Source: Candidatus Thiopontia autotrophica (GTDB taxonomy: Bacteria; Pseudomonadota; Gammaproteobacteria; GCF-002020875). From it: a stretch of 56,084 nucleotides of DNA. The stretch spans positions 1 to 56,084 of the forward strand of contig JACNFK010000017.1 of assembly GCA_014384675.1 (NCBI GenBank). Direction: 5' to 3'. The notes beneath the pieces are model-generated. The model saw only the letters and a list, made by a program, of their open reading frames with translations, did no database searches and was not told the origin of the DNA. Position 1 is the stretch's first letter. Every line of letters begins with the position of its first letter. A program made the position numbers and the translations under genes. Positions 2,253 to 49,058 of this stretch are shown here, piece after piece.

Positions 2253-3914
2253 GTGACAATGGAGACATGGCAGATCACTACCCATCTTCTTGGTGGGCTG
2301 GCAATTTTTCTCTTCGGGCTGGAGCAGCTGACAACAGCACTCAAGGTTGTGGCCGGAGAGCGGATGAAACTGCTGCTCTCTCAGCTCACCACAAACCGTT
2401 TTACCGGTGTTCTATCCGGCACCATCGTCACCTCAATCGTGCAATCATCATCTGTCACCACCGTATTGACAGTTGGTTTCATTACCGCCGGATTGATGAA
2501 TCTGACCCAATCTATGGGGGTGATTATGGGAGCCAATATAGGCACCACCATCACCGCACAGATTATCGCCTTCAACATTACCAAACAGGCGCTGGTGATG
2601 ATCTGGTTTGGATTCGCCCTCTTCTTCTTTGCCCAACATGAACGCATAAAGAACTATGGCACCCTGATATTTGGCCTCGGCATGATCTTCTTCGGGATGG
2701 GAATCATGTCCGATGCTATGGCCCCACTGAGAGATAACCCGTGGTTTCTTGAGCTTATCACCAGCGCAGAAAACCCCCTGATTGCCATTTTTGTGGCGGC
2801 CGGGTTTACCGCCCTTATTCAGTCCTCCTCGGCAACCACCGGAATCATTATCATCCTCGCGACCCAGGGGCTGATCACCTTGCCTATCGGTATCGCCCTC
2901 TCCTTCGGGGCAAATATCGGCACCTGTATAACGGCGGGAATTGCCGCTATCGGCAAGCCGCGCGAGGCGGTACGGGCAGCCCTGTTTCATATTCTCTTCA
3001 ATATTATTGGGGTGATGATCTGGTTTCTGTTTGTGGATGATCTGGCGTCGTGGGTAGAGCAGTTTTCGCCTATCCATACGGAACTCTCCGGACTGGAACG
3101 GCAAAGCGCAGAGGTTCCCAGGCAGATTGCCAACGCCCACACTCTATTCAATGTGGTGAATATGTTGATCTTCATCGGCTTTGTCGGGCCGATTGTCAAA
3201 CTGCTGGTGGTGCTAGTTCCTGACAAGAGACAACCCACTACCGATTACCTGGAGCATGATCTGCTCACCACACCTTCGCTTGCCCTGGCTGCAGCCGAGA
3301 GTGAGATCGAGGTCATGGGAGATCACGTTATCTCCATGCTTCGACGCAGCATGCCAGAGGCGTTGAGCGGAGACAGCTACTCGCTCCACACCCTGGCAGC
3401 GGAACAGCAACGGGTCAAAATATCACTGCTGGAGATTACAGATTATCTGCGCCGCCTCAGTAAACAGGAGCTGACTGAGCATGAGACCACAGAGATGATG
3501 CAGTGTCTGGTGGTTACCAATGAACTTGAGACCATTGGGGAGATTATCGAGAGGGGCATCACCCAGGGCGGTCTGCTGCGTCATGACGAGTTGATCAGGG
3601 TGAGTGAGGCAACCCAACAACTTCTAACCTCATTCCATCATGATATCCTCAATGCTGTACATCGATCGATACAGGCATTCCATGATCATGATCCGGATTC
3701 CGCCCTTCAGGTGATCGAGATGAAGAGCTATATCAAGGAGTTTCAGGAGCACACCGTGCACCATATGATGCGCCGGCTACAGGCAAGTGAGCCCAATCGG
3801 GTTGCGGCCTATACCCTGGAGAATAACCTTATTGACCATCTTAAACAGATCCATACAGCGGCCAGGCGAATAGCACGTCATATTCCGCACCATGGACAAC
3901 AGGATGATTCCTAA
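2253..3914 (+). CDS. Na+/phosphate cotransporter family protein with PhoU-like C-terminal domain
   Basis: The product is an inner-membrane protein of the NptA/YjbB (PF02690) family, which couples sodium to phosphate movement. Two inverted Na/Pi repeats are visible, each with the diagnostic QSSS motif (residues 64-67 and 190-193) and a following GANIGT loop. About eight hydrophobic segments fill residues 10-330. The hydrophilic remainder (about 340-550) is helical and looks like the PhoU-type domain of the longer family members. The start is GTG at 2253; ATG at 2259 is an equally good alternative. It follows priA by 3 bp. Its stop overlaps the convergent ycgN stop by 4 bp, so no terminator separates the two. 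Direction of transport and true substrate cannot be read from sequence. Confidence 0.9.
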   Translation: MTMETWQITTHLLGGLAIFLFGLEQLTTALKVVAGERMKLLLSQLTTNRFTGVLSGTIVTSIVQSSSVTTVLTVGFITAGLMNLTQSMGVIMGANIGTTITAQIIAFNITKQALVMIWFGFALFFFAQHERIKNYGTLIFGLGMIFFGMGIMSDAMAPLRDNPWFLELITSAENPLIAIFVAAGFTALIQSSSATTGIIIILATQGLITLPIGIALSFGANIGTCITAGIAAIGKPREAVRAALFHILFNIIGVMIWFLFVDDLASWVEQFSPIHTELSGLERQSAEVPRQIANAHTLFNVVNMLIFIGFVGPIVKLLVVLVPDKRQPTTDYLEHDLLTTPSLALAAAESEIEVMGDHVISMLRRSMPEALSGDSYSLHTLAAEQQRVKISLLEITDYLRRLSKQELTEHETTEMMQCLVVTNELETIGEIIERGITQGGLLRHDELIRVSEATQQLLTSFHHDILNAVHRSIQAFHDHDPDSALQVIEMKSYIKEFQEHTVHHMMRRLQASEPNRVAAYTLENNLIDHLKQIHTAARRIARHIPHHGQQDDS

Positions 3915-33862: not shown

Positions 33863-35254
33863 CTACGTATTGACGTCAGCTGACGTCAACCTCCACTTCA
33901 ACAGAGCAGGTCCTACCAGTGTGGTTACAACTGTCATAATCACCACGGCAGAAAAGAGCGATGGGCCAAGAACACCAAGCCCTTTTCCTATCGCTGCCAT
34001 GATAAGTGCAACCTCGCCTCGAGGAACCATGCCCGCACCAATAGCTGATCTTGATAGATGACGTTCTGCACCAAGCCCGCTGATCATCTTGCCAACAATC
34101 GCAACAATAGTCAGAGCCGAAGCAAGCAGAACAATCTCCTGATCAAGAAAAACCTCAAGCTTTACCTGCATCCCCATCAACACAAAGAAAATTGGAGCGA
34201 AGACAGCCTCAAAGGGGCGTATCTGTTCACGAATCTCATGATCAAGCCTACACTCTCTATTCTCTAAATCGCACTCTTTCATCCAGTAATTGAATTCATG
34301 GTTGCTCAGAATTAACCCTGCGGCAAAGGCCCCTACGATTGCAGAGAGGCCCACAAAATCAGCCAACCAGGAGAGGCTGGTCAGCATCAGGAACGCAATA
34401 AACAGCTCTGCCTCCCACAGATCAAGGTGGTGAAGATGCTTGATCACAGCACGAATTATCCTGGGGACCAGCAGATATATAGAGGCCAAAAACATTGCTG
34501 CCTGAATAATGGAGTAGACAATACTTGTCATATCCAGGCTGCCACGAGAGACCGCATCAATACCAATTGCCATAAGAACCAGCCCCAACACATCATCAAT
34601 AACTGCCGCACTCAAGACAACACGTGCAACCTCAGTGTTGTCTTGGTTGAGGTCATGAAAAACCCGTGCAGAAATACCAATGCTGGTGGCACAAAGCGCA
34701 ATAGCAACCAGTAGATTAGTGGTCCAGTGAGCCTGGGGCGCAAGCAACTGCATTACTCCAATACCAAAAACAAACGGTGCAATCACCCCAATCATTGCAA
34801 CCCGAAATGCCGATTTTGCCGATGCTTGCAGCTCGATTGTGGATGAGTTCAGCCCAACCGCAAAAAGCAGAAAGAGCAGGCCAATTCTGGAAAAACTATC
34901 AATAATCTGGATTACATCAGTAATTTTACCGCCCTGAGAGCTAGAGAGAATTGGTAGCATCTCATCTGCCAGCTCATCTCCAAGGGTGATCTTAAGAGCC
35001 TGTTCAAGCGTGACACCCGCATCAAGAGAGAGGTTTATTGCATTGAATACCGCGCCTGATTCACGCAAAACCGAGATCAGATCACTTCCAATCCAGTAAC
35101 CAATATTTCCAATCAACATCCCAAAGGCAAGCTCACCCAGCACAGATGGCTGATTGAGACGTTTTGCAATATGTCGCCCCAACAGAGCCAACAGCGTAAT
35201 AACTGTTAGCCCAAGAAGAACTGGAGCTACAGGATCGGTGTGGATAGATTCCAT
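33863..35254 (-). CDS. CPA2 family monovalent cation:H+ antiporter
   Basis: An inner-membrane Na+(K+)/H+ exchanger-like protein (PF00999) of 463 aa with about 12 hydrophobic segments. The N-terminus PVLLGLTVITLLALLGRHIA leads into LNQPSVLGELAFGMLIGNIG. Later segments include VVLSAAVIDDVLGLVLMAIG with the paired Asp residues typical of the ion-binding site, AIVGAFAAGLILSN, and VPRGEVALIMAAIGKGLG. There is no C-terminal RCK/TrkA-N domain, unlike KefB/KefC. A long loop (about 80-115) follows the second helix. The 3' end of the gene contains a 20-bp perfect palindrome (33870-33889). Ion selectivity cannot be judged from sequence. Confidence 0.9.
   Translation of the reverse strand: MESIHTDPVAPVLLGLTVITLLALLGRHIAKRLNQPSVLGELAFGMLIGNIGYWIGSDLISVLRESGAVFNAINLSLDAGVTLEQALKITLGDELADEMLPILSSSQGGKITDVIQIIDSFSRIGLLFLLFAVGLNSSTIELQASAKSAFRVAMIGVIAPFVFGIGVMQLLAPQAHWTTNLLVAIALCATSIGISARVFHDLNQDNTEVARVVLSAAVIDDVLGLVLMAIGIDAVSRGSLDMTSIVYSIIQAAMFLASIYLLVPRIIRAVIKHLHHLDLWEAELFIAFLMLTSLSWLADFVGLSAIVGAFAAGLILSNHEFNYWMKECDLENRECRLDHEIREQIRPFEAVFAPIFFVLMGMQVKLEVFLDQEIVLLASALTIVAIVGKMISGLGAERHLSRSAIGAGMVPRGEVALIMAAIGKGLGVLGPSLFSAVVIMTVVTTLVGPALLKWRLTSADVNT
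33870..33889. repeat. 20-bp perfect palindrome at the 3' end of the antiporter gene
   Basis: TTGACGTCAGCTGACGTCAA is its own reverse complement. It lies in the last codons of the antiporter gene (encoding LTSADVN) and may form a hairpin near the mRNA end or bind a dimeric protein. Confidence 0.55.
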
Positions 35255-40096: not shown

Positions 40097-40420
40097 TTAC
40101 GGCAGGTTACGGTTTATAAAGTCCCGCACAAAAGATTCCGGTTTGGCGCCCTGAAATCGCTCCACCTCTTCCCCATCGATAAAGGCGATTACTGTTGGAA
40201 AGCCACGTGCACCAAAGCGCCCGGCAATCTTCATATTCTCATCCTCTGCCTCAAGCTTGGCAAGGATAAACTCTCCGCTATACTCCCGGTCCAAGCGCTC
40301 AAGAATAGGCTCTAGCACCTTGCAAGGACCACACCACTCTGCACTGATGTCCAGCACTACCAGATGTTTTGAGGACTCTGCAATGACTGTCTGATCGAAA
40401 TTATCGACATCAACCTGAAT
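40097..40420 (-). CDS. Thioredoxin family protein with a non-ATG start
   Basis: A thioredoxin-fold protein whose conserved part has [20 protein letters not shown] and GFPTVIAFIDGEEVERFQG. The only common start codon in frame (GTG 40357) would cut off the first beta strand and helix. Reading upstream, VDVDNFDQTVIAESSKHLVV restores a normal 107-aa thioredoxin, beginning at ATT (40418-40420) or CTG (40421-40423) just after a GGAGGAGG ribosome site in the end of the SulP gene. The CTG overlaps the SulP stop as CTGA, the same geometry as an ATGA overlap. I therefore give the ATT-start coordinate. The WCGPC site is intact, so the protein should be redox active. Confidence 0.75.
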   Translation of the reverse strand: MQVDVDNFDQTVIAESSKHLVVLDISAEWCGPCKVLEPILERLDREYSGEFILAKLEAEDENMKIAGRFGARGFPTVIAFIDGEEVERFQGAKPESFVRDFINRNLP

Positions 40421-42243
40421 CAGAAGGCCTCCTCCAGAGAATCCCGGCGTGCATTTTTCTCCTCTTCCTCTTCACCCTCAGGGGTGATGAGAGCACAATA
40501 ATTACTGCCGAAATCCTCTCCATCAAGGCGGCGGTAGATATAGTCGATAGCCATATCCTCATTGGGATGAATATTCTCTGCACCAACATGTCCAAACAGG
40601 CCTGTGCGCTGCATGACCTTGTGGATCTGCGCCTTGAGACCACTAAACACCAGAGTAATCTCATTATCCTTTAGCCGGTTAACCAACTGATGAAGCATCT
40701 CCTCACCAGAGGCATCAAGCTGATTAATGGCATCACCAACCACCAGGACATACTTTACATCCGGGCGTGCACATAACGCCTCAAGAATTGCCTCTTCAAA
40801 ATAGGAGACATTTGCAAAGTAGAGAGAGCCATCAAAACGAAGAACTACAATGCGCTTATCCTGTGGAAGATTATGGACACTGATATCGCGCAGGGTTCCA
40901 TCAGCATAGCGCCCCAGAATTGCCACACGAGGCTTCATTGTTGTATAGAGGTATAGACCAAGCGCCAACAGGGCACCAATCATAATGCCTTGATCGAGAT
41001 GGGGGGCAAACCCCAGAGTTGCAACAAATGTAACTATTGATGCTGCACCATCATGTTTATTGGCAATCCAGGTATGTTTGAATGCCTTGAAATTAATCAG
41101 GCCGATTACTGCCATCATGATTACCGCTGCCAGCACAGCCTTTGGCAGATGATATAGAAGCGGGGTCAGAAAGAGCAGGGTTATCAGCACCAGTACTGCA
41201 GTAAAGACCGAAGACATTCCAGTCTTTGCCCCTGCATTGAGGTTTACTGCAGATCGCGAGAAGGAGCCACTGGCCGGATAGGCTTGGGAGAAACTGCCCA
41301 CAATATTGGCCAACCCCTGTCCAATCAACTCCTGATTAGGGTCAACCCTATCCTTGGTCTTGGCTGCCATCGCCTTGGCGATGGAGATCGCCTCCATAAA
41401 ACCAACCATGGAGATAACAATTGCACTGGTAAAGAGAATACCAAGCACCTCAAGGTTGATGGTTGGAACCTTCATCTCCGGAAGGCCTTCAGGAATCTCT
41501 CCAACAACTGCACCCCCCATACCCTGGAAACCGATCATGTAGCTCAATACAGTAGTAATTACCACAGCCAACAGAACTCCTGGCAGTTTGGGCATAAACT
41601 TCTTGGCTCCCATCATGATGGCAAAGGCCAAAACCCCCATAAAGAGGGTCATCATATGAGTATCACCCAACTGCTGCAATACTCCCCAGATATCACCAAT
41701 AAAAAAGTCACTACGATCCTTGGTTACTCCAAAAATCTTGTTTAGCTGAGAGAGGCCAATAACCATCGCTGCTGCATTGGTAAAACCAACAATCACCGGA
41801 TGTGAAAGAAAGTTGACCACCACTCCCAATTTCAACACGCCAAGCGTTAACTGAAATAGCCCGACTAGAAGAGCCAGCAGAACGGCCAGTGGCACATAAA
41901 ACTGAACCAACTGCTCCTGATTCATTGCATCAATACTGCTCACACCTTCAGGCAGGTTGGATTGCAGTGCAGTTCCCACAGCAACAGCGGTTAACAGCGA
42001 GACCACCGCAACCGGCCCAGTCCCTAACTGTTTGGAAGATCCCCAGAGCGCGGCCACCATCACCGGCAGAAACGATGCATATAGTCCAAAGTAGGCAGGA
42101 AGCCCTGCAAGCTGAGCGTAAGCCATGGACTGAGGTATAAGTACCAGGGCAACCGTAATACCCGCTATGAGATCAGCACGAATGGTCTCTCCATTCATTG
42201 GGAACCATTTCAGAAAGGGGAGAAAACGCTGGATCATTTCCAT
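40420..42243 (-). CDS. SulP family anion transporter with STAS domain
   Basis: An inner-membrane SLC26/SulP transporter of about 607 aa from ATG 42243; GTG 42276 would add 11 residues. The sulfate-transporter signature is visible as PQSMAYAQLAGLPAYFGLYASFLP near residue 50, followed by about 12 hydrophobic segments. The cytoplasmic STAS domain occupies about residues 440-555 (RIVVLRFDGSLYFANVSYFE, VKYVLVVGDAINQLDASGEE). Substrates of the family include sulfate and, in some autotrophs, bicarbonate; the sequence alone does not decide. The thioredoxin gene overlaps its stop. No inverted repeat-type terminator separates them. Confidence 0.92.
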   Translation of the reverse strand: MEMIQRFLPFLKWFPMNGETIRADLIAGITVALVLIPQSMAYAQLAGLPAYFGLYASFLPVMVAALWGSSKQLGTGPVAVVSLLTAVAVGTALQSNLPEGVSSIDAMNQEQLVQFYVPLAVLLALLVGLFQLTLGVLKLGVVVNFLSHPVIVGFTNAAAMVIGLSQLNKIFGVTKDRSDFFIGDIWGVLQQLGDTHMMTLFMGVLAFAIMMGAKKFMPKLPGVLLAVVITTVLSYMIGFQGMGGAVVGEIPEGLPEMKVPTINLEVLGILFTSAIVISMVGFMEAISIAKAMAAKTKDRVDPNQELIGQGLANIVGSFSQAYPASGSFSRSAVNLNAGAKTGMSSVFTAVLVLITLLFLTPLLYHLPKAVLAAVIMMAVIGLINFKAFKHTWIANKHDGAASIVTFVATLGFAPHLDQGIMIGALLALGLYLYTTMKPRVAILGRYADGTLRDISVHNLPQDKRIVVLRFDGSLYFANVSYFEEAILEALCARPDVKYVLVVGDAINQLDASGEEMLHQLVNRLKDNEITLVFSGLKAQIHKVMQRTGLFGHVGAENIHPNEDMAIDYIYRRLDGEDFGSNYCALITPEGEEEEEKNARRDSLEEAF

Positions 42244-42556
42244 AAAACTATTACCGTTCAAAGGGTTACAAGGCACTCATATAACAACAAAAACACATAT
42301 CAGACGACATAGAGACGATATGGAGCAGACGAGCTTGCTGGAGTGGCGGCAGATGATACCAATCAATCCCTTGTGATTCAAGGGAATATAAGAGCATAGC
42401 GGATTCCTTATTTTGCACGATCCTCCCCAACCTCTCTCAAAGTCAGCCTGTATAGCATCCAAACCTGAATAATGTGTATGGATAAAATTCAAAACATATC
42501 AAGACCGGCCACCTACACAGTAGACAAGAGTAGTCGAACCGGGGGATCATACGGAT
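42244..42556. other. Intergenic region between the SulP and efflux-lipoprotein genes
   Basis: About 310 bp with no convincing gene. The only structure I see is an inverted repeat, TCCCTTG-N5-CAAGGGA, at 42367-42385. The region must contain the divergent promoters of the SulP gene (-) and the outer-membrane factor gene (+), but no element is clear enough to mark. Confidence 0.5.
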
Positions 42557-43990: not shown

Positions 43991-45433
43991 ATGAAAACCC
44001 TCTTCACCTCTCTTTTAATACTTATCTTTCCGGTATCAAGCCTGGCATCTGGACAAACCGGTGAGGCTCTTGATCTGACTGGAGAGACTATTGGAATTCT
44101 ATCCCTAATTATCTTTTCCCTTGCCTATCTCTTGGTAATGGCTGAGGAGTTTACCCACCTGAGAAAGTCCAAACCGGTACTGCTTGCAGCTGGCATTATC
44201 TGGGCGATGATCGCCACGGTCTACGCATCCCACGGTATGCCCCATGCTGCTGAAGTAGCCGTACGCCACAACTTCCTGGAATTTTCCGAGTTGATGATGT
44301 TCCTGCTGGTTGCCATGACTTATATAAATGCGTTGGAGGAGCGTCGTGTCTTCGAGGCACTACGATCCTGGCTGGTTCGCAAAGGTTTCGGATTCCGCCA
44401 GCTGTTCTGGCTAACCGGCATCCTTGCCTTCTTCATCTCCCCAATTGCTGACAATCTGACCACAGCACTGTTGATGTGTGCAGTGGTGCTGGCTGTGGGT
44501 GGTGACAACAGAAAGTTTATCCTCCTTGCCTGTATCAATATCGTGGTGGCAGCCAATGCAGGAGGCGCCTTCAGCCCCTTTGGTGATATCACCACCCTGA
44601 TGGTCTGGCAAAAGGGAATTGTCGATTTTGGAACCTTCTTCGCACTGTTCATTCCATCTGTTGTTAACTTTGTGATCCCTGCCGCAATCATGCATTTCGC
44701 TATACCTGACATGCATCCTGAGGCAAGCGATGAGGTAACAACAATGAAGCGTGGTGCCCGACGCATTATCCTGCTGTTTTTGTTGACTATCTCGACAGCG
44801 GTTAGCTTCCACAACTTCCTGCACTTGCCGCCAGTTCTGGGAATGATGACCGGCCTGGCTTATCTACAGTTTTTCGGCTACTACCTGAAAAAGACCTTCG
44901 ACAAGGATATCCCTGATAGTGGAGAGCATGGCGATCTTATGGATCCTGCCCTTCCCGCCCCTTTCGATATTTTCAACAAGGTGGCCCGTGCTGAGTGGGA
45001 TACCCTGCTCTTCTTCTATGGGGTAATCCTGGCTGTTGGTGGCCTCGGATTTATTGGTTATCTCTCTCTTGCCTCTGAGGTGATGTACGCTCAATGGGGA
45101 GCCACCAATGCCAATGTGGCTGTTGGGGTACTCTCTGCTATTGTTGACAACATTCCCGTGATGTTTGCGGTTTTGACAATGATGCCTGATATGTCGATGG
45201 GACAGTGGCTACTGGTGACACTGACCGCTGGGGTTGGCGGAAGCATGCTCTCCATCGGATCTGCGGCCGGAGTTGCGCTGATGGGGCAGGCGCGCGGAAA
45301 GTACACCTTTGTTGGCCATCTCAAGTGGACCCCGGTGATCGCTCTTGGATATGCTGCCAGTATCTGGGTCCATCTACTGGTCAATGACTCCTATTTTGCA
45401 CTCCCCGCTCTCGGGATTGCAGCAGGGGGCTAG
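43991..45433 (+). CDS. nhaD: Na+/H+ antiporter NhaD
   Basis: An inner-membrane ion-transporter-superfamily Na+/H+ exchanger of the NhaD type, 480 aa, common in marine and halotolerant bacteria. An N-terminal signal-like helix precedes GILSLIIFSLAYLLVMAEEF. Conserved segments are RKSKPVLLAAGIIWAMIA, FFISPIADNLTTALLMCAVV, NAGGAFSPFGDITTLMVWQ, and the second-half repeat SAIVDNIPVMFAVLTMMPDM and GVGGSMLSIGSAAGVALMGQ. The paired Asn/Asp-rich motifs (ADNLTT, VDNIPV) are the predicted ion sites. It is convergent with the LCIB-like gene (24 bp). Confidence 0.95.
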   Translation: MKTLFTSLLILIFPVSSLASGQTGEALDLTGETIGILSLIIFSLAYLLVMAEEFTHLRKSKPVLLAAGIIWAMIATVYASHGMPHAAEVAVRHNFLEFSELMMFLLVAMTYINALEERRVFEALRSWLVRKGFGFRQLFWLTGILAFFISPIADNLTTALLMCAVVLAVGGDNRKFILLACINIVVAANAGGAFSPFGDITTLMVWQKGIVDFGTFFALFIPSVVNFVIPAAIMHFAIPDMHPEASDEVTTMKRGARRIILLFLLTISTAVSFHNFLHLPPVLGMMTGLAYLQFFGYYLKKTFDKDIPDSGEHGDLMDPALPAPFDIFNKVARAEWDTLLFFYGVILAVGGLGFIGYLSLASEVMYAQWGATNANVAVGVLSAIVDNIPVMFAVLTMMPDMSMGQWLLVTLTAGVGGSMLSIGSAAGVALMGQARGKYTFVGHLKWTPVIALGYAASIWVHLLVNDSYFALPALGIAAGG

Positions 45434-45457
45434 TACCACCTCCCCCTATTCATAGAG

Positions 45458-46585
45458 CTATTGCTCCCCTGGAGACTCGATCACCACCTCTTCCAGATAT
45501 TCCATCTGCTGAATAGCGCCATCCAGATCAATCTGATCCGGGTTGTCGGTAGACTGCTCACTCAGTAGCTCCCATAGCTCATCTTGCTCATAGGTCACAC
45601 GAGAACCGTCACTGTCCTGAAAATAGGCGGCCCATGGAACAAACTTGGTCAACGGGAAGATCTGTCCAACCCGTGGTGAGATATCGATGTTGATCCCGGA
45701 GATAAAGAGCAGGCGCTTGCCATGATAGGCAGGATCCTGGGTGATGGTTCTGAAGGCGCGGTCAAATTCAACCTGTGAATTGATCTGTGCGGCAATCAGT
45801 GCCGGGGAGTTTGTAGTTACAATCTGTGGCATATAGGGTAGCAGATTTCTCTCCAGATGGTCGTGCCCCTCCTCTGCCTCCTGAATATTTCTCTCAAAAG
45901 AGAAGAGCTCTGCGCTCAATGCCGAACCAATTACCTGCGCCTCTCCCTCCTCCAGGAGTGAGAAACGCTCTGCAAAAGCGGCTGTTGCAAGAAACATCTT
46001 TGAGGTACTCAGTGCGCGCAGGATAAGATACTCCCCCTGCTCATCCTGTTGCACCATACTCTCCAGACACAGCACCAACCCCTCCTGGCGACGGCCATCA
46101 AGTAGCTGGTTGTCTATAGTTACCATAATCTCGCCATTACGCCGCTTCACCAGGATGTTTTCACAGGCAAAATGGTACTCGCTAAGATACCAGCTGGAGA
46201 CCCCGGCAATCTTGCCACAGTCGGAGGTAGACTCGCAGTGGCTGGTCTGTAGCCTACGATAACTACCAAACTGCTCTGTATCCGGGTCATAGCCAACGTG
46301 GCTAGCCTGAATAATTACCATATCCTGGCCATGGTGGGCATGAGGCCCGTGGCGGTCGGTTGCCACAATGCCCCCAACTCGCCCATGGTTGAATGGAAAG
46401 GTACCAAAGTGTTTGGCGATTAGAATGATGGGGAAGCCTTGGTTCTCATCCGAACAGAAGGCGCGAGAGGGCATAATCCTGCCTGGCTCAAACCCCAGCG
46501 AGAGGCAGAAATTATAGAGCCTGGGAATGAATTGACTATAGCGCGTCATGCGCTGCTCTAGCTGAAAATCTCCCACCGATCTCAT
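45458..46585 (-). CDS. LCIB-like (theta-type) carbonic anhydrase family protein
   Basis: A 375-aa soluble protein. Its N-terminal half resembles the limiting-CO2-inducible LCIB/LCIC family (PF18599), whose members include theta carbonic anhydrases with a beta-CA-like fold. Candidate zinc ligands occur in order: C44 with D46 in FCSDENQG, H96 in IIQASHVGYDP, and C123 in CESTSDCGKIAG. The stretch GRVGGIVATDRHG and the Arg/Ser-rich tract between H96 and C123 also fit the LCIB pattern. The C-terminal half (about 190-375) is acidic and less conserved. It lies 3 bp after hemW in the rph-rdgB-hemW direction and faces nhaD. A CO2/bicarbonate role is an inference from family. No signal peptide is present. 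Confidence 0.6.
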   Translation of the reverse strand: MRSVGDFQLEQRMTRYSQFIPRLYNFCLSLGFEPGRIMPSRAFCSDENQGFPIILIAKHFGTFPFNHGRVGGIVATDRHGPHAHHGQDMVIIQASHVGYDPDTEQFGSYRRLQTSHCESTSDCGKIAGVSSWYLSEYHFACENILVKRRNGEIMVTIDNQLLDGRRQEGLVLCLESMVQQDEQGEYLILRALSTSKMFLATAAFAERFSLLEEGEAQVIGSALSAELFSFERNIQEAEEGHDHLERNLLPYMPQIVTTNSPALIAAQINSQVEFDRAFRTITQDPAYHGKRLLFISGINIDISPRVGQIFPLTKFVPWAAYFQDSDGSRVTYEQDELWELLSEQSTDNPDQIDLDGAIQQMEYLEEVVIESPGEQ

Positions 46586-46588
46586 TCT

Positions 46589-47851
46589 CTATTCTCCATC
46601 TTGTTTAATATTCATAAATAGTGCCAGCAGGTCATTGAGAAACTCTCTTCCGTGGTCGGTTGCAACAACCTGCTCTCCGGTGCGTAACAGTAACCCCTCT
46701 CTGCACCCCTTTTCAACTGTTGACTCTACCCTATTCCAACTGCAACCGGTACGCTCCTCAAATTGCCTCACTGTAAACGGCTCATTTATCCGTAGTCTGT
46801 TCATCATAAACTCCAGCGGAAGATCATGTGCGGGCACAGTGTGGCGCTCTGACAACAGCCGCTCCGACCCCGCACCATCCATATAGCGCTGTGGGCTCTT
46901 CTGTCGTGATGAGCGAATAATGGCCCCATCTGCGGCCATGGTAATCTTGCTATGGGCCCCGGCCCCAATGCCGAGATAGTCCCCAAACCGCCAGTAGTTG
47001 AGGTTGTGGCGACACTCGCTCTGCTCTCTCGCATAGGCCGAGATCTCATACTGTTCAAGCCCCTCCTCCTGTAACAGCTGCTGCCCCTCCAGCTGCATCT
47101 CCCAGAGCTCCTCATCATCAGGGAGTGGTGGTGGCTGGTGACCGAATGGGGTGTTTGGCTCCATGGTGAGCTGATACCAGGAGAGGTGCTCCACGCCCAG
47201 CGCCACAGCCTGCTGCAGATCTCCCATCGCCTCCGCTCTACTCTGTTGCGGCAACCCAAACATCAGGTCCAGATTGATATTCTCAAATCCAGCCCCCCTT
47301 GCCATCTCAACTGCGGTAGCAGCATCCTCTCCATCATGAATTCGACCAATTGCCTCAAGCCTCCCATCATCAAAACTCTGGACCCCAATGGAAAGTCGAT
47401 TTACCCCTGCCTGCCGATATCCAGCAAAACGCTCTTGCTCCACTGCTCCTGGGTTAGCCTCCAGTGTAACCTCGGGCTCCGGGCCAAACGGCAGACGGGC
47501 ACGGATTCCAGACAACAGACGCTCTATCTCTTCAGCAGGAAAAAGGCTGGGGGTTCCTCCTCCAATAAAAATTGAGCGTACCGGTCGCCCCCAAACCCTG
47601 GGAAGCTCCCACTCCAGATCTAGCAACAACGCATCTACGTAGTGATCAAACGGCAGGGCATCTCCAGACGCATGTGAATTGAAATCACAATAGGGGCACT
47701 TCTGTAGACACCACGGCAGGTGGATGTAGAGCGAGAGCGGAATGACCGCAGTAAAGTTTAGCTCTGTAATAACTTGACCAGCCTCTTCAGCGCCTGCCCA
47801 CGGTGGCTCAGCCTGTTTTTCACCTCTGCAGGAAGCTCTGCCGAGCTGCAC
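46589..47851 (-). CDS. hemW: HemW heme chaperone (radical-SAM, coproporphyrinogen oxidase-like)
   Basis: HemW is a radical-SAM protein that binds heme and is thought to deliver it to respiratory enzymes; it lacks HemN activity. The Fe-S motif [13 protein letters not shown] follows [10 protein letters not shown]. Later segments are [32 protein letters not shown] and the HemN C-terminal domain. The start is unclear: the only standard codon before the domain is GTG 47851, which has a GGAG site but overlaps rdgB by 94 nt and adds about 36 residues. Family proteins start just before PLSLYIH, where only ATT codons (47770, 47743) exist. Size from GTG is 420 aa. Confidence 0.93.
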
Positions 47852-48348
47852 CCCTGCTCCGGAACAAAAAAGATCGGGTCATAGCCAAAACCATTCTCGC
47901 CCTGAGGGGCAGTCAGAATACGCCCCTCCCAGCTCCCCTGGGCAATTAGTGGGGTTGGATCCTCTGCATGTTCCATGTAGACCATCAGACACTGAAAACG
48001 TGCACTACGCTGCCCCTCCGGCACCCCATCCAGCGCCCTCAACAGTTTCTGGTTGTTAGCTGGATCATTGCCGTCGGTTCCGGCATAACGGGCAGAGTAG
48101 ATGCCCGGTGCCCCCTTGAGATAGTCCACCTCCAGACCGGAATCATCGGCAATAGCAGGCAATCCGGTATGGGCTGCCGCATTGCGCGCCTTGAGAATAG
48201 CGTTCTCGACGAAGGTAAGGCCGGTCTCCTCTGCCTCTACTACACCGAACTCTGTCTGCGGTATCACCTCCATCTCAAAGTTGGCAAGCAGCTCACCCAG
48301 CTCTTTCACCTTTCCCTTGTTGCCGGTTGCCAATATGATTTTTTTCAC
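47758..48348 (-). CDS. rdgB: XTP/dITP diphosphatase RdgB
   Basis: RdgB hydrolyses non-canonical purine triphosphates (dITP, XTP) to keep them out of DNA. The 196-aa product begins [20 protein letters not shown], the nucleotide-binding signature. Conserved segments are [29 protein letters not shown] with the catalytic Asp, GIYSARYAG, and [14 protein letters not shown]. The ATG at 48348 overlaps the rph stop by 4 nt. hemW follows, its start probably inside the end of rdgB. The rph-rdgB-hemW order is a standard gammaproteobacterial arrangement. Confidence 0.97.
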
Positions 48349-49058
48349 GCCAGAGACTCTTGTTGATGGGCAATCAACTCACCAATCCCCTGCTGTGCCA
48401 GCGCCAACATCTGCTGCATCTCATCCATGCTGAAGGGGGCCTCCTCTGCCGTCCCCTGTACCTCGATGAACTGCCCTTTACTGTTCATTACCACATTCAT
48501 ATCTGTTTCAGCGTTGGAGTCCTCAGCATAATCGAGATCAAGAACAGGTGTGCCCTGGTAAACCCCAACCGATACTGATGCAATTGGTGTTGTAATGGGG
48601 TTCTGCTCAACAGCTCCCACCTCCATCAGGTGTTGGATCGCATCAGAGAGCGCCACAAAACCACCTGTAATGGATGCTGTGCGGGTACCTCCATCAGCCT
48701 GGATCACATCACAGTCAACCGTAATCATCTGTTCACCCAGCATCTTAAGGTCAACTGCTGCTCGCAGTGAGCGTCCGATCAGGCGCTGAATCTCCATGGT
48801 GCGGCCACCCTGCTTGCCCCGTGCCGCTTCGCGCCCCATACGGCTACCAGTCGAGCGTGGCAGCATACCGTACTCCGCAGTTACCCACCCCTTGCCTTTA
48901 CCTTTTAGCCAGCGTGGAACTCTATCCTCAACCGAGGCGGTACAGATTACCTTGGTCTCACCAAACTCCACCAACACCGAGCCCTCGGCATGCTTGGTGT
49001 AATTGCGGGTGATCTTGATCTCACGCATCTGATTAGGCTCTCTTTTACTGGGTCGCAT
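48345..49058 (-). CDS. rph: Ribonuclease PH
   Basis: RNase PH trims tRNA 3' ends phosphorolytically. The 237-aa protein starts [20 protein letters not shown]. Family motifs are [71 protein letters not shown] with the phosphate-binding Arg, and the C-terminal [19 protein letters not shown]. Full length, so it lacks the frameshift known from E. coli K-12. It is divergent from yicC (72 bp) and overlaps rdgB by 4 nt. Confidence 0.98.

Follow-up and report, generated by a model that had tools for sequence, protein, structure and literature searches.

What a 375-residue protein encoded in the genome of Candidatus Thiopontia autotrophica does, and whether it serves the supply of inorganic carbon in this autotroph, is the question raised by one gene in the stretch of DNA analyzed here ("the window," all 56,084 nucleotides taken from contig JACNFK010000017.1 of this gammaproteobacterium). 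An earlier sequence-only reading had placed the open reading frame at 45458-46585, had taken C44, D46, H96, and C123 of its product for the zinc-site pattern of the "LCIB" or θ-class carbonic anhydrases (CAs), and had suggested, as speculation, a link to inorganic-carbon handling. The frame and all four residues are where that reading put them. The answer that we regard as probable is that the protein acts in the cytosol as a soluble zinc CA of LCIB fold and takes the place of a missing β-class CA in mostly carboxysome-free autotrophs; its location, the zinc, the catalysis, the direction of flux, and the coupling to an antiporter are what we infer in this answer.

Relationship to the LCIB family

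The open reading frame is a real gene under purifying selection. Homologs of its product occur in all six genomes of the genus, and dN/dS lies between 0.06 and 0.13 in the nine of 15 pairs of genus members for which it could be computed, synonymous sites being saturated in the other six pairs. The upstream rph, rdgB, and hemW frames overlap or abut, and the putative CA gene follows on the same strand 3 bases after the end of hemW, with GGAG located 8 bases 5′ of its ATG (Table 1). A gap of 24 bases separates it from the convergent nhaD, and no inverted repeats of at least 12 bases were found in 45430-45470, the region around this gap. Elsewhere in the window, a second sodium/proton exchanger (Na_H_Exchanger, 33863-35254) and a Na/Pi cotransporter (2253-3914) fit with sodium-based transport.

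Table 1. Positions in the window of the putative carbonic anhydrase gene, its neighbors, and the codons of its presumed active-site residues
Feature	Position	Strand	Basis
LCIB-related putative carbonic anhydrase, 375 aa	45458..46585	-	ORF with ATG start; PF18599 17.6 bits; predicted-fold match; dN/dS
hemW-like radical SAM gene, upstream, same strand	46589..47851	-	Radical_SAM and HemN_C matches
rdgB	47758..48348	-	Ham1p_like
rph (RNase PH)	48345..49058	-	Pfam match
nhaD Na+/H+ antiporter, convergent neighbor	43991..45433	+	NCBIfam NhaD_1 655 bits, cut-off 80
SulP transporter, sulfate-permease type	40420..42276	-	TIGR00815 431 bits, BicA model 133 bits
C44-S45-D46 codons, presumed zinc ligand and its Asp	46448..46456	-	C44 and D46 27/27; aligned with CSD motif of canonical LCIB
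C44 codon TGT	46454-46456	-	Hand-placed
D46 codon GAT	46448-46450	-	Hand-placed
H96 codon CAC, presumed zinc ligand	46298..46300	-	27/27; aligned with His104 of canonical L037
R111 codon, candidate for functional Arg of LCIB	46253..46255	-	27/27; G-x-x-x-R spacing, hand reading
C123 codon TGT, presumed zinc ligand	46217..46219	-	27/27; aligned with Cys128 of canonical L037
H82 codon, candidate counterpart of PtLCIB4 His88	46340..46342	-	His in 25/27

The sole Pfam family found for the protein is PF18599 (LCIB_C_CA), matched at 17.6 bits (E = 0.0025, residues 17-128 on profile positions 5-117) and thus below the curated cut-off of 25 bits. No NCBIfam family was matched, PF00484 of the β-class CAs gave no match at E ≤ 1, and a search of the organism's own genome with PF18599 at E ≤ 0.001 returned no match at that limit, as was also the case for control genomes. 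Likewise, searches of PDB sequences with the single protein and with a 27-member profile of its homologs returned no detectable match, and nothing was found when the protein was searched against a plasmid collection and viral contigs. The homologs were drawn from a collection of genome contigs (6 loci), from 6 of 37 near genomes, each belonging to the genus, and from 26 of 369 members of the class; the alignment of 27 omits the copy of G345 (L075), a long open reading frame that was compared separately. PF18599 is matched by 26 of these 27 at E ≤ 0.1, at best with 1.8e-7. The PF18599 profile, searched against 274 class members, matched in 10 genomes, one of them through a canonical protein (G120, 254.9 bits) and nine through members of the window protein's subfamily, with five of the latter above the cut-off (G103, G039, G222, G157, and G230).

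Comparison of the profile of the 27 homologs with that of four canonical LCIB sequences gave E = 9.4e-6 at an hhalign probability of 83%, pairing C44, D46, H96, and C123 with C48, D50, H104, and C128 of the canonical bacterial protein L037. The N-terminal half scored 44, where none of 60 column-shuffled controls exceeded 19.8, a difference that together with the PF18599 matches of the homologs places the LCIB resemblance beyond chance. The C-terminal half, whose score of 15.2 falls short of the 16.6 reached by the best shuffled control, shows no homology above controls and is therefore not recognized by sequence.

Two AlphaFold models point to the same family. The first, built from 7 sequences, has a mean pLDDT of 69.5 and a pTM of 0.71; the second, led by a 54%-identical homolog, has 65.5 and 0.66. 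Foldseek ranks 1-6 for the first model are all LCIB-family chains, and VIA-align places it at Z 14.0 with 5b5z_A (205 residues, rmsd 3.2), 13.8 with 5b5y_B and 6kfs, 12.8 with 5b60, and 11.9 with 5b5x and 5k5w, the next row falling to 4.8. The corresponding values for the second model are 14.4, 14.4, 13.9, 13.2, 11.9, and 11.9, the next row being the β-class CA of Haemophilus influenzae at 5.6. As predicted by both models, the fold is that of LCIB (Z 11.9-14.4), with the presumed active-site loops weak in each and residues 38-86 and 113-123 of the first model below a pLDDT of 50. Within residues 7-349 of the first model, the stretch that the matches cover, 189-209 residues are aligned, and more than 100 thus have no counterpart in the known structures.

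The LCIB-like homology proposed by the sequence-only reading is thus borne out, by a sub-threshold match to PF18599, where it might have had none, and by matches of both models, with site loops of low confidence, to PtLCIB4, LCIB, and LCIC rather than to a different fold. Because fold and motif agree with LCIB while the score remains below the Pfam cut-off, the protein is filed here as LCIB-related, in a divergent sister branch; profile comparison and predicted structure mark it as related to, but diverged from, the LCIB/LCIC (θ) CA family.

How this branch differs from the known members can be seen from individual comparisons. The predicted fold is matched best by PtLCIB4, a diatom LCIB homolog (5b5y, 5b5z, 5b60), and by 6kfs (Z 12.8-14.4 across 190-214 residues), which share the motif order CxD...H...CG, but at 11-14% identity neither the protein nor even its 27-member profile finds them by sequence; the window protein also has no T-R or N-R after CSDE and, at 375 residues, is longer. 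Chlamydomonas LCIB and LCIC (5k5w, 5b5x) share the fold of the predicted models at Z 11.9 and, like the window protein, are linked to the inorganic-carbon supply of RuBisCO, but they form a chloroplast, pyrenoid-associated complex and are reported to be inactive in purified form (PMC5876011). The canonical bacterial L037, which at the profile level belongs to the same Pfam family with its C/H/C motif aligned, is in contrast a short form (245 residues), and a PF18599 match of its strength occurs in only one of the 274 genomes. Its gene (L037:1459-2199) lies in a gammaproteobacterium, G120, that has a RuBisCO match too.

Beyond the family itself, the LCIB fold is β-CA-like (Z 5.5-5.6 for the H. 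influenzae enzyme with the second model), and β-class CAs and the window protein both have two Cys, one His, and CxD, although the latter is not matched by PF00484 and the two have inverse distributions among genomes. A β-CA-like site is also ascribed, in the paper on the DAB2 structure (PMC13144422), to DabA of DAB complexes (PF10070; Cys351, His524, Cys539, and Asp353-Arg355); unlike the window protein, DabA is membrane-coupled and has ~830-1100 residues, and in three loci it is encoded next door as a separate protein. If active, the window protein would work as an LCIB-class or β-class-like CA.

Genomic company of the family

The LCIB-related family is found in 26 of the 369 gammaproteobacterial genomes and is intact in 23. 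Excluded as broken were the copies of G073 (confined to model positions 4-60 and containing stops), G182 (in two pieces), and G267 (starting after the C44 region), and G362, with a gapped match, was retained; two further carriers, G002 and G003, lie outside the 369. RuBisCO (PF00016, a profile that also matches RuBisCO-like proteins) is present in 187 of these genomes, β-class CA (PF00484) in 240, and DabA in 83. By a statistic that ignores phylogeny, intact-gene genomes are enriched in RuBisCO (20/23 versus 167/346 others, p = 3e-4) and depleted of β-class CA (6/23 versus 234/346, p = 1e-4), the latter also within RuBisCO-positive genomes (6/20 carriers versus 112/167 others, p = 0.002). By the same statistic DabA shows no significant association (8/23 versus 75/346, p = 0.19) and its co-occurrence was for that reason rejected as statistical support, so that its adjacency in three copies stands alone. 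With the three broken carriers included, RuBisCO is found in 20 of 26 and β-class CA in 8 of 26. The genomes of the broken copies (L078 in G182, L079 in G267, and L080 in G073) have a RuBisCO match in none of three cases and β-class CA in two.

Contrasts within taxonomic families, read by hand, address in part the problem that phylogeny poses for such tests. In four families (f2, f36, f81, and f137) an intact carrier lacks β-class CA and the listed sisters without a homolog have it, one such sister in f137 being of the same genus as the carrier; f63 is similar, its carrier having a weak β-CA match only. In f110 and f154 β-class CA occurs on both sides and in f43 and f99 on neither, while f134 is opposite, with β-class CA in the carrier and missing from one of two sisters.

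When G002, G003, and the three broken cases are counted, the 28 carriers include eight with β-class CA, four with α-class CA, and three with the carboxysome marker CsoS2. RuBisCO is present in all six genomes of the genus, and searches for β-class CA, α-class CA, and CsoS2 found none of the three there; in the organism's own genome (G000), PF00484 has no match at E ≤ 0.001. A carboxysome as general partner of the family was rejected on these counts of CsoS2. Thus, of the suggestion that orthologs might track with RuBisCO or carboxysome genes, the first part holds and the second does not. The organism's own RuBisCO (G000:C24) is matched by the 459-residue PRK13475 model at 888 bits, a model that we take to be that of form II RuBisCO; CbbQ and VWA-domain genes lie downstream of it and a LysR-like gene is divergent.

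Gene neighborhoods were compared for 28 intact copies, several of them on short contigs (26 copies from 25 genomes, with two in G219, plus L005 and L006). A DAB operon, comprising dabA and three NuoL/M-like frames, is the next gene in three, convergent in G005/L003 and G002/L004 and on the same strand in G135/L059. These operons (L003:4746-12731, L004:3749-11741, and L059:5794-13628) encode a DabA of ~1,100 residues and, instead of the single DabB of the usual form, three NuoL/M-like proteins, one NuoL-like and two NuoM-like in L003. A BicA-like SulP gene is next in four others (G293/L062, G219/L065, G158/L070, and G345/L075); their products score 595-840 bits with the NCBIfam BicA model, below its cut-off of 880, versus 230-292 with the general sulP model, and that of L070 is closest (390 bits) to 6ki1, presumably the BicA structure. 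Sodium/proton antiporter genes are adjoining or one gene off in five copies, with Mrp next to G004/L001, G293/L062, and, as one partial subunit, G219/L065, and nhaD next to the G000 copy and one gene away in G003. A DAB or BicA-like neighbor is thus found for seven of the 28 copies, and for 10 once the antiporters are added; the other 18 have none of these, and their neighbors, where annotated, have unrelated functions in housekeeping, regulation, or transport.

Some individual loci may be noted. The two intact copies of G219 (L065 and L066) fall on different tree branches, one adjoining a BicA-like gene and the other not. In G312 (L074, 6960-10404) the homolog lies on the same strand between ornithine/aspartate carbamoyltransferase-like and class-III aminotransferase genes, with CsoS2 ~10 kb away on the same contig. 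A 460-residue hemN-like gene is directly upstream of the homolog in L005 (6501-9134), an echo of hemW in the window that is possibly coincidence.

The context within the window itself requires some revision. The hemW operon, in which the earlier reading had placed the gene, was rejected as functional context: hemW is upstream in only three of the six genus genomes (G000, G004, and G001), the neighbors being others in G002, G003, and G005. The SulP transporter likewise fails as evidence for bicarbonate transport and was rejected as a BicA, since it scores above the TIGR00815 cut-off of 380 and below the BicA cut-off of 880 (Table 1); the solved chain nearest to it is chloroplast sulfate transporter 4.1. 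With a SulP of the sulfate type and a hemW linkage that is not conserved, the context within the window is the weaker one; G000 has no DabA, and no DIC pump was identified in the window. The broader suggestion, a part in the inorganic-carbon handling of an autotroph, gains support from RuBisCO in the same genome and from the DAB or BicA-like genes that adjoin a quarter of the intact copies.

These neighborhoods bear on an alternative that we consider unlikely, in which the protein is an accessory of carbon uptake that binds or recaptures CO2 beside a membrane pump such as DAB or BicA and is active only in that assembly. The adjacent DAB (3/28) and BicA-like (4/28) genes are what such a role would lead one to expect, and PMC5876011 relates a comparable proposal for algal LCIB, the recapture of leaked CO2 at the edge of the pyrenoid. 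An obligate pump partner is harder to reconcile with the 18 of 28 copies that have no such transporter or antiporter neighbor and with the window, where no DIC pump was identified and the SulP is of the sulfate type, and the inverse relation with β-class CA suggests a general role.

Presumed active site

C44, D46, E47, H96, R111, and C123 are invariant in all 27 homologs, and the putative zinc motif Cys-x-Asp...His...Cys is kept, as judged by alignment, at positions homologous to those of LCIB. Two further assignments, of H82 and R111 as candidates for the catalytic His162 and Arg194 of LCIB, were made by hand. The canonical Arg is aligned by hhalign to R110 and not to R111, the residue chosen from its spacing, and H82 was equated with the His mutated in 5b5z (H88A) by counting back, ungapped, from H96 in the shared SHVG motif. 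Phe or Tyr replaces H82 in the divergent copies of G312, G345, and G362 (L074, L075, and L076), whose activity may be altered or lost; a carboxysome marker, found in three carriers, is present in G312 and G345. Three additional histidines, H67, H79, and H85, are also invariant (27/27) and lie, within residues 67-96, beside the presumed ligands, where a second metal site or a proton path is possible.

Whether conservation of this kind implies catalysis is a fair question, as a review (PMC5876011) reports that purified LCIB and LCIC are inactive, which it attributes to disordered His162/161 and Arg194/193. Together with the loss of H82 in three copies, this lends some weight to a quite improbable second alternative, that of a catalytically inactive LCIB-fold protein acting as a sensor or binder of inorganic carbon or in a structural role. 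Full conservation of the presumed zinc triad, Asp, and Arg, retention of H82 in 25 of 27 homologs, and the absence of β-class CA from most carriers all speak instead for an active enzyme. It is very improbable that the protein is a zinc enzyme with this fold but another substrate, unrelated to CO2: the subfamily has diverged (as its hhalign probability of 83% reflects), exceeds the 223-position Pfam profile by ~150 residues, and has the extra invariant H67, H79, and H85, but the association with RuBisCO, the inverse association with β-class CA, and the DAB and BicA-like neighbors are all at odds with it.

A proposed cytosolic role

The preferred reading, that of a general cytosolic CA, can be stated in mechanistic terms. 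C44, H96, and C123 would hold the zinc, D46 would activate zinc-bound water, and the side chains of H82 and R111 would assist. The enzyme would interconvert CO2 and bicarbonate in the cytosol, in the genus in place of a β-class CA, so as to provide form II RuBisCO, outside a carboxysome, with CO2 from the bicarbonate pool and ordinary carboxylases with bicarbonate. For several of the relatives, the pool would be filled by a pump encoded next door, either DAB, which would make the bicarbonate, or a BicA-like Na+/bicarbonate symporter paired with NhaD or Mrp, the antiporter expelling the sodium taken up along with bicarbonate and bringing in the proton consumed in the conversion of bicarbonate to CO2. 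A free cytosolic CA could, however, short-circuit a bicarbonate pump or waste its gradient, a consideration that would favor either recapture of leaked CO2 or restriction of the enzyme to cells with RuBisCO outside carboxysomes.

In the literature, a minireview of the inorganic-carbon toolkit counts θ-CA among the CA classes, the words LCIB and PF18599 being absent from its main text (PMC10880623), and PF18599 is applied to diatom θ-CA in PMC8119650. Searches of an open-access library found no description of a bacterial LCIB, a match in PMC7892595 being a false one to the footnote of a table, and an earlier description elsewhere is possible.

Surveys of inorganic-carbon genes that depend on Pfam cut-offs miss part of the LCIB-related branch, the window protein included, and such autotrophs would thereby be recorded as having no cytosolic CA. 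A soluble bacterial protein of LCIB type would also offer a handy test of LCIB-fold catalysis outside algae, and the neighborhoods with DAB and BicA-like genes give direct, testable predictions. More broadly, and only tentatively, since we think it rather doubtful, the bacterial LCIB branch may have repeatedly displaced β-class CA in chemoautotrophic Gammaproteobacteria, serving as the cytosolic end of a carbon-concentrating module without carboxysomes in which DAB or a sodium-driven bicarbonate symporter, a proton-returning sodium/proton antiporter, and an LCIB-type enzyme releasing CO2 for free form II RuBisCO would act together, much as in the stroma of the algal chloroplast.
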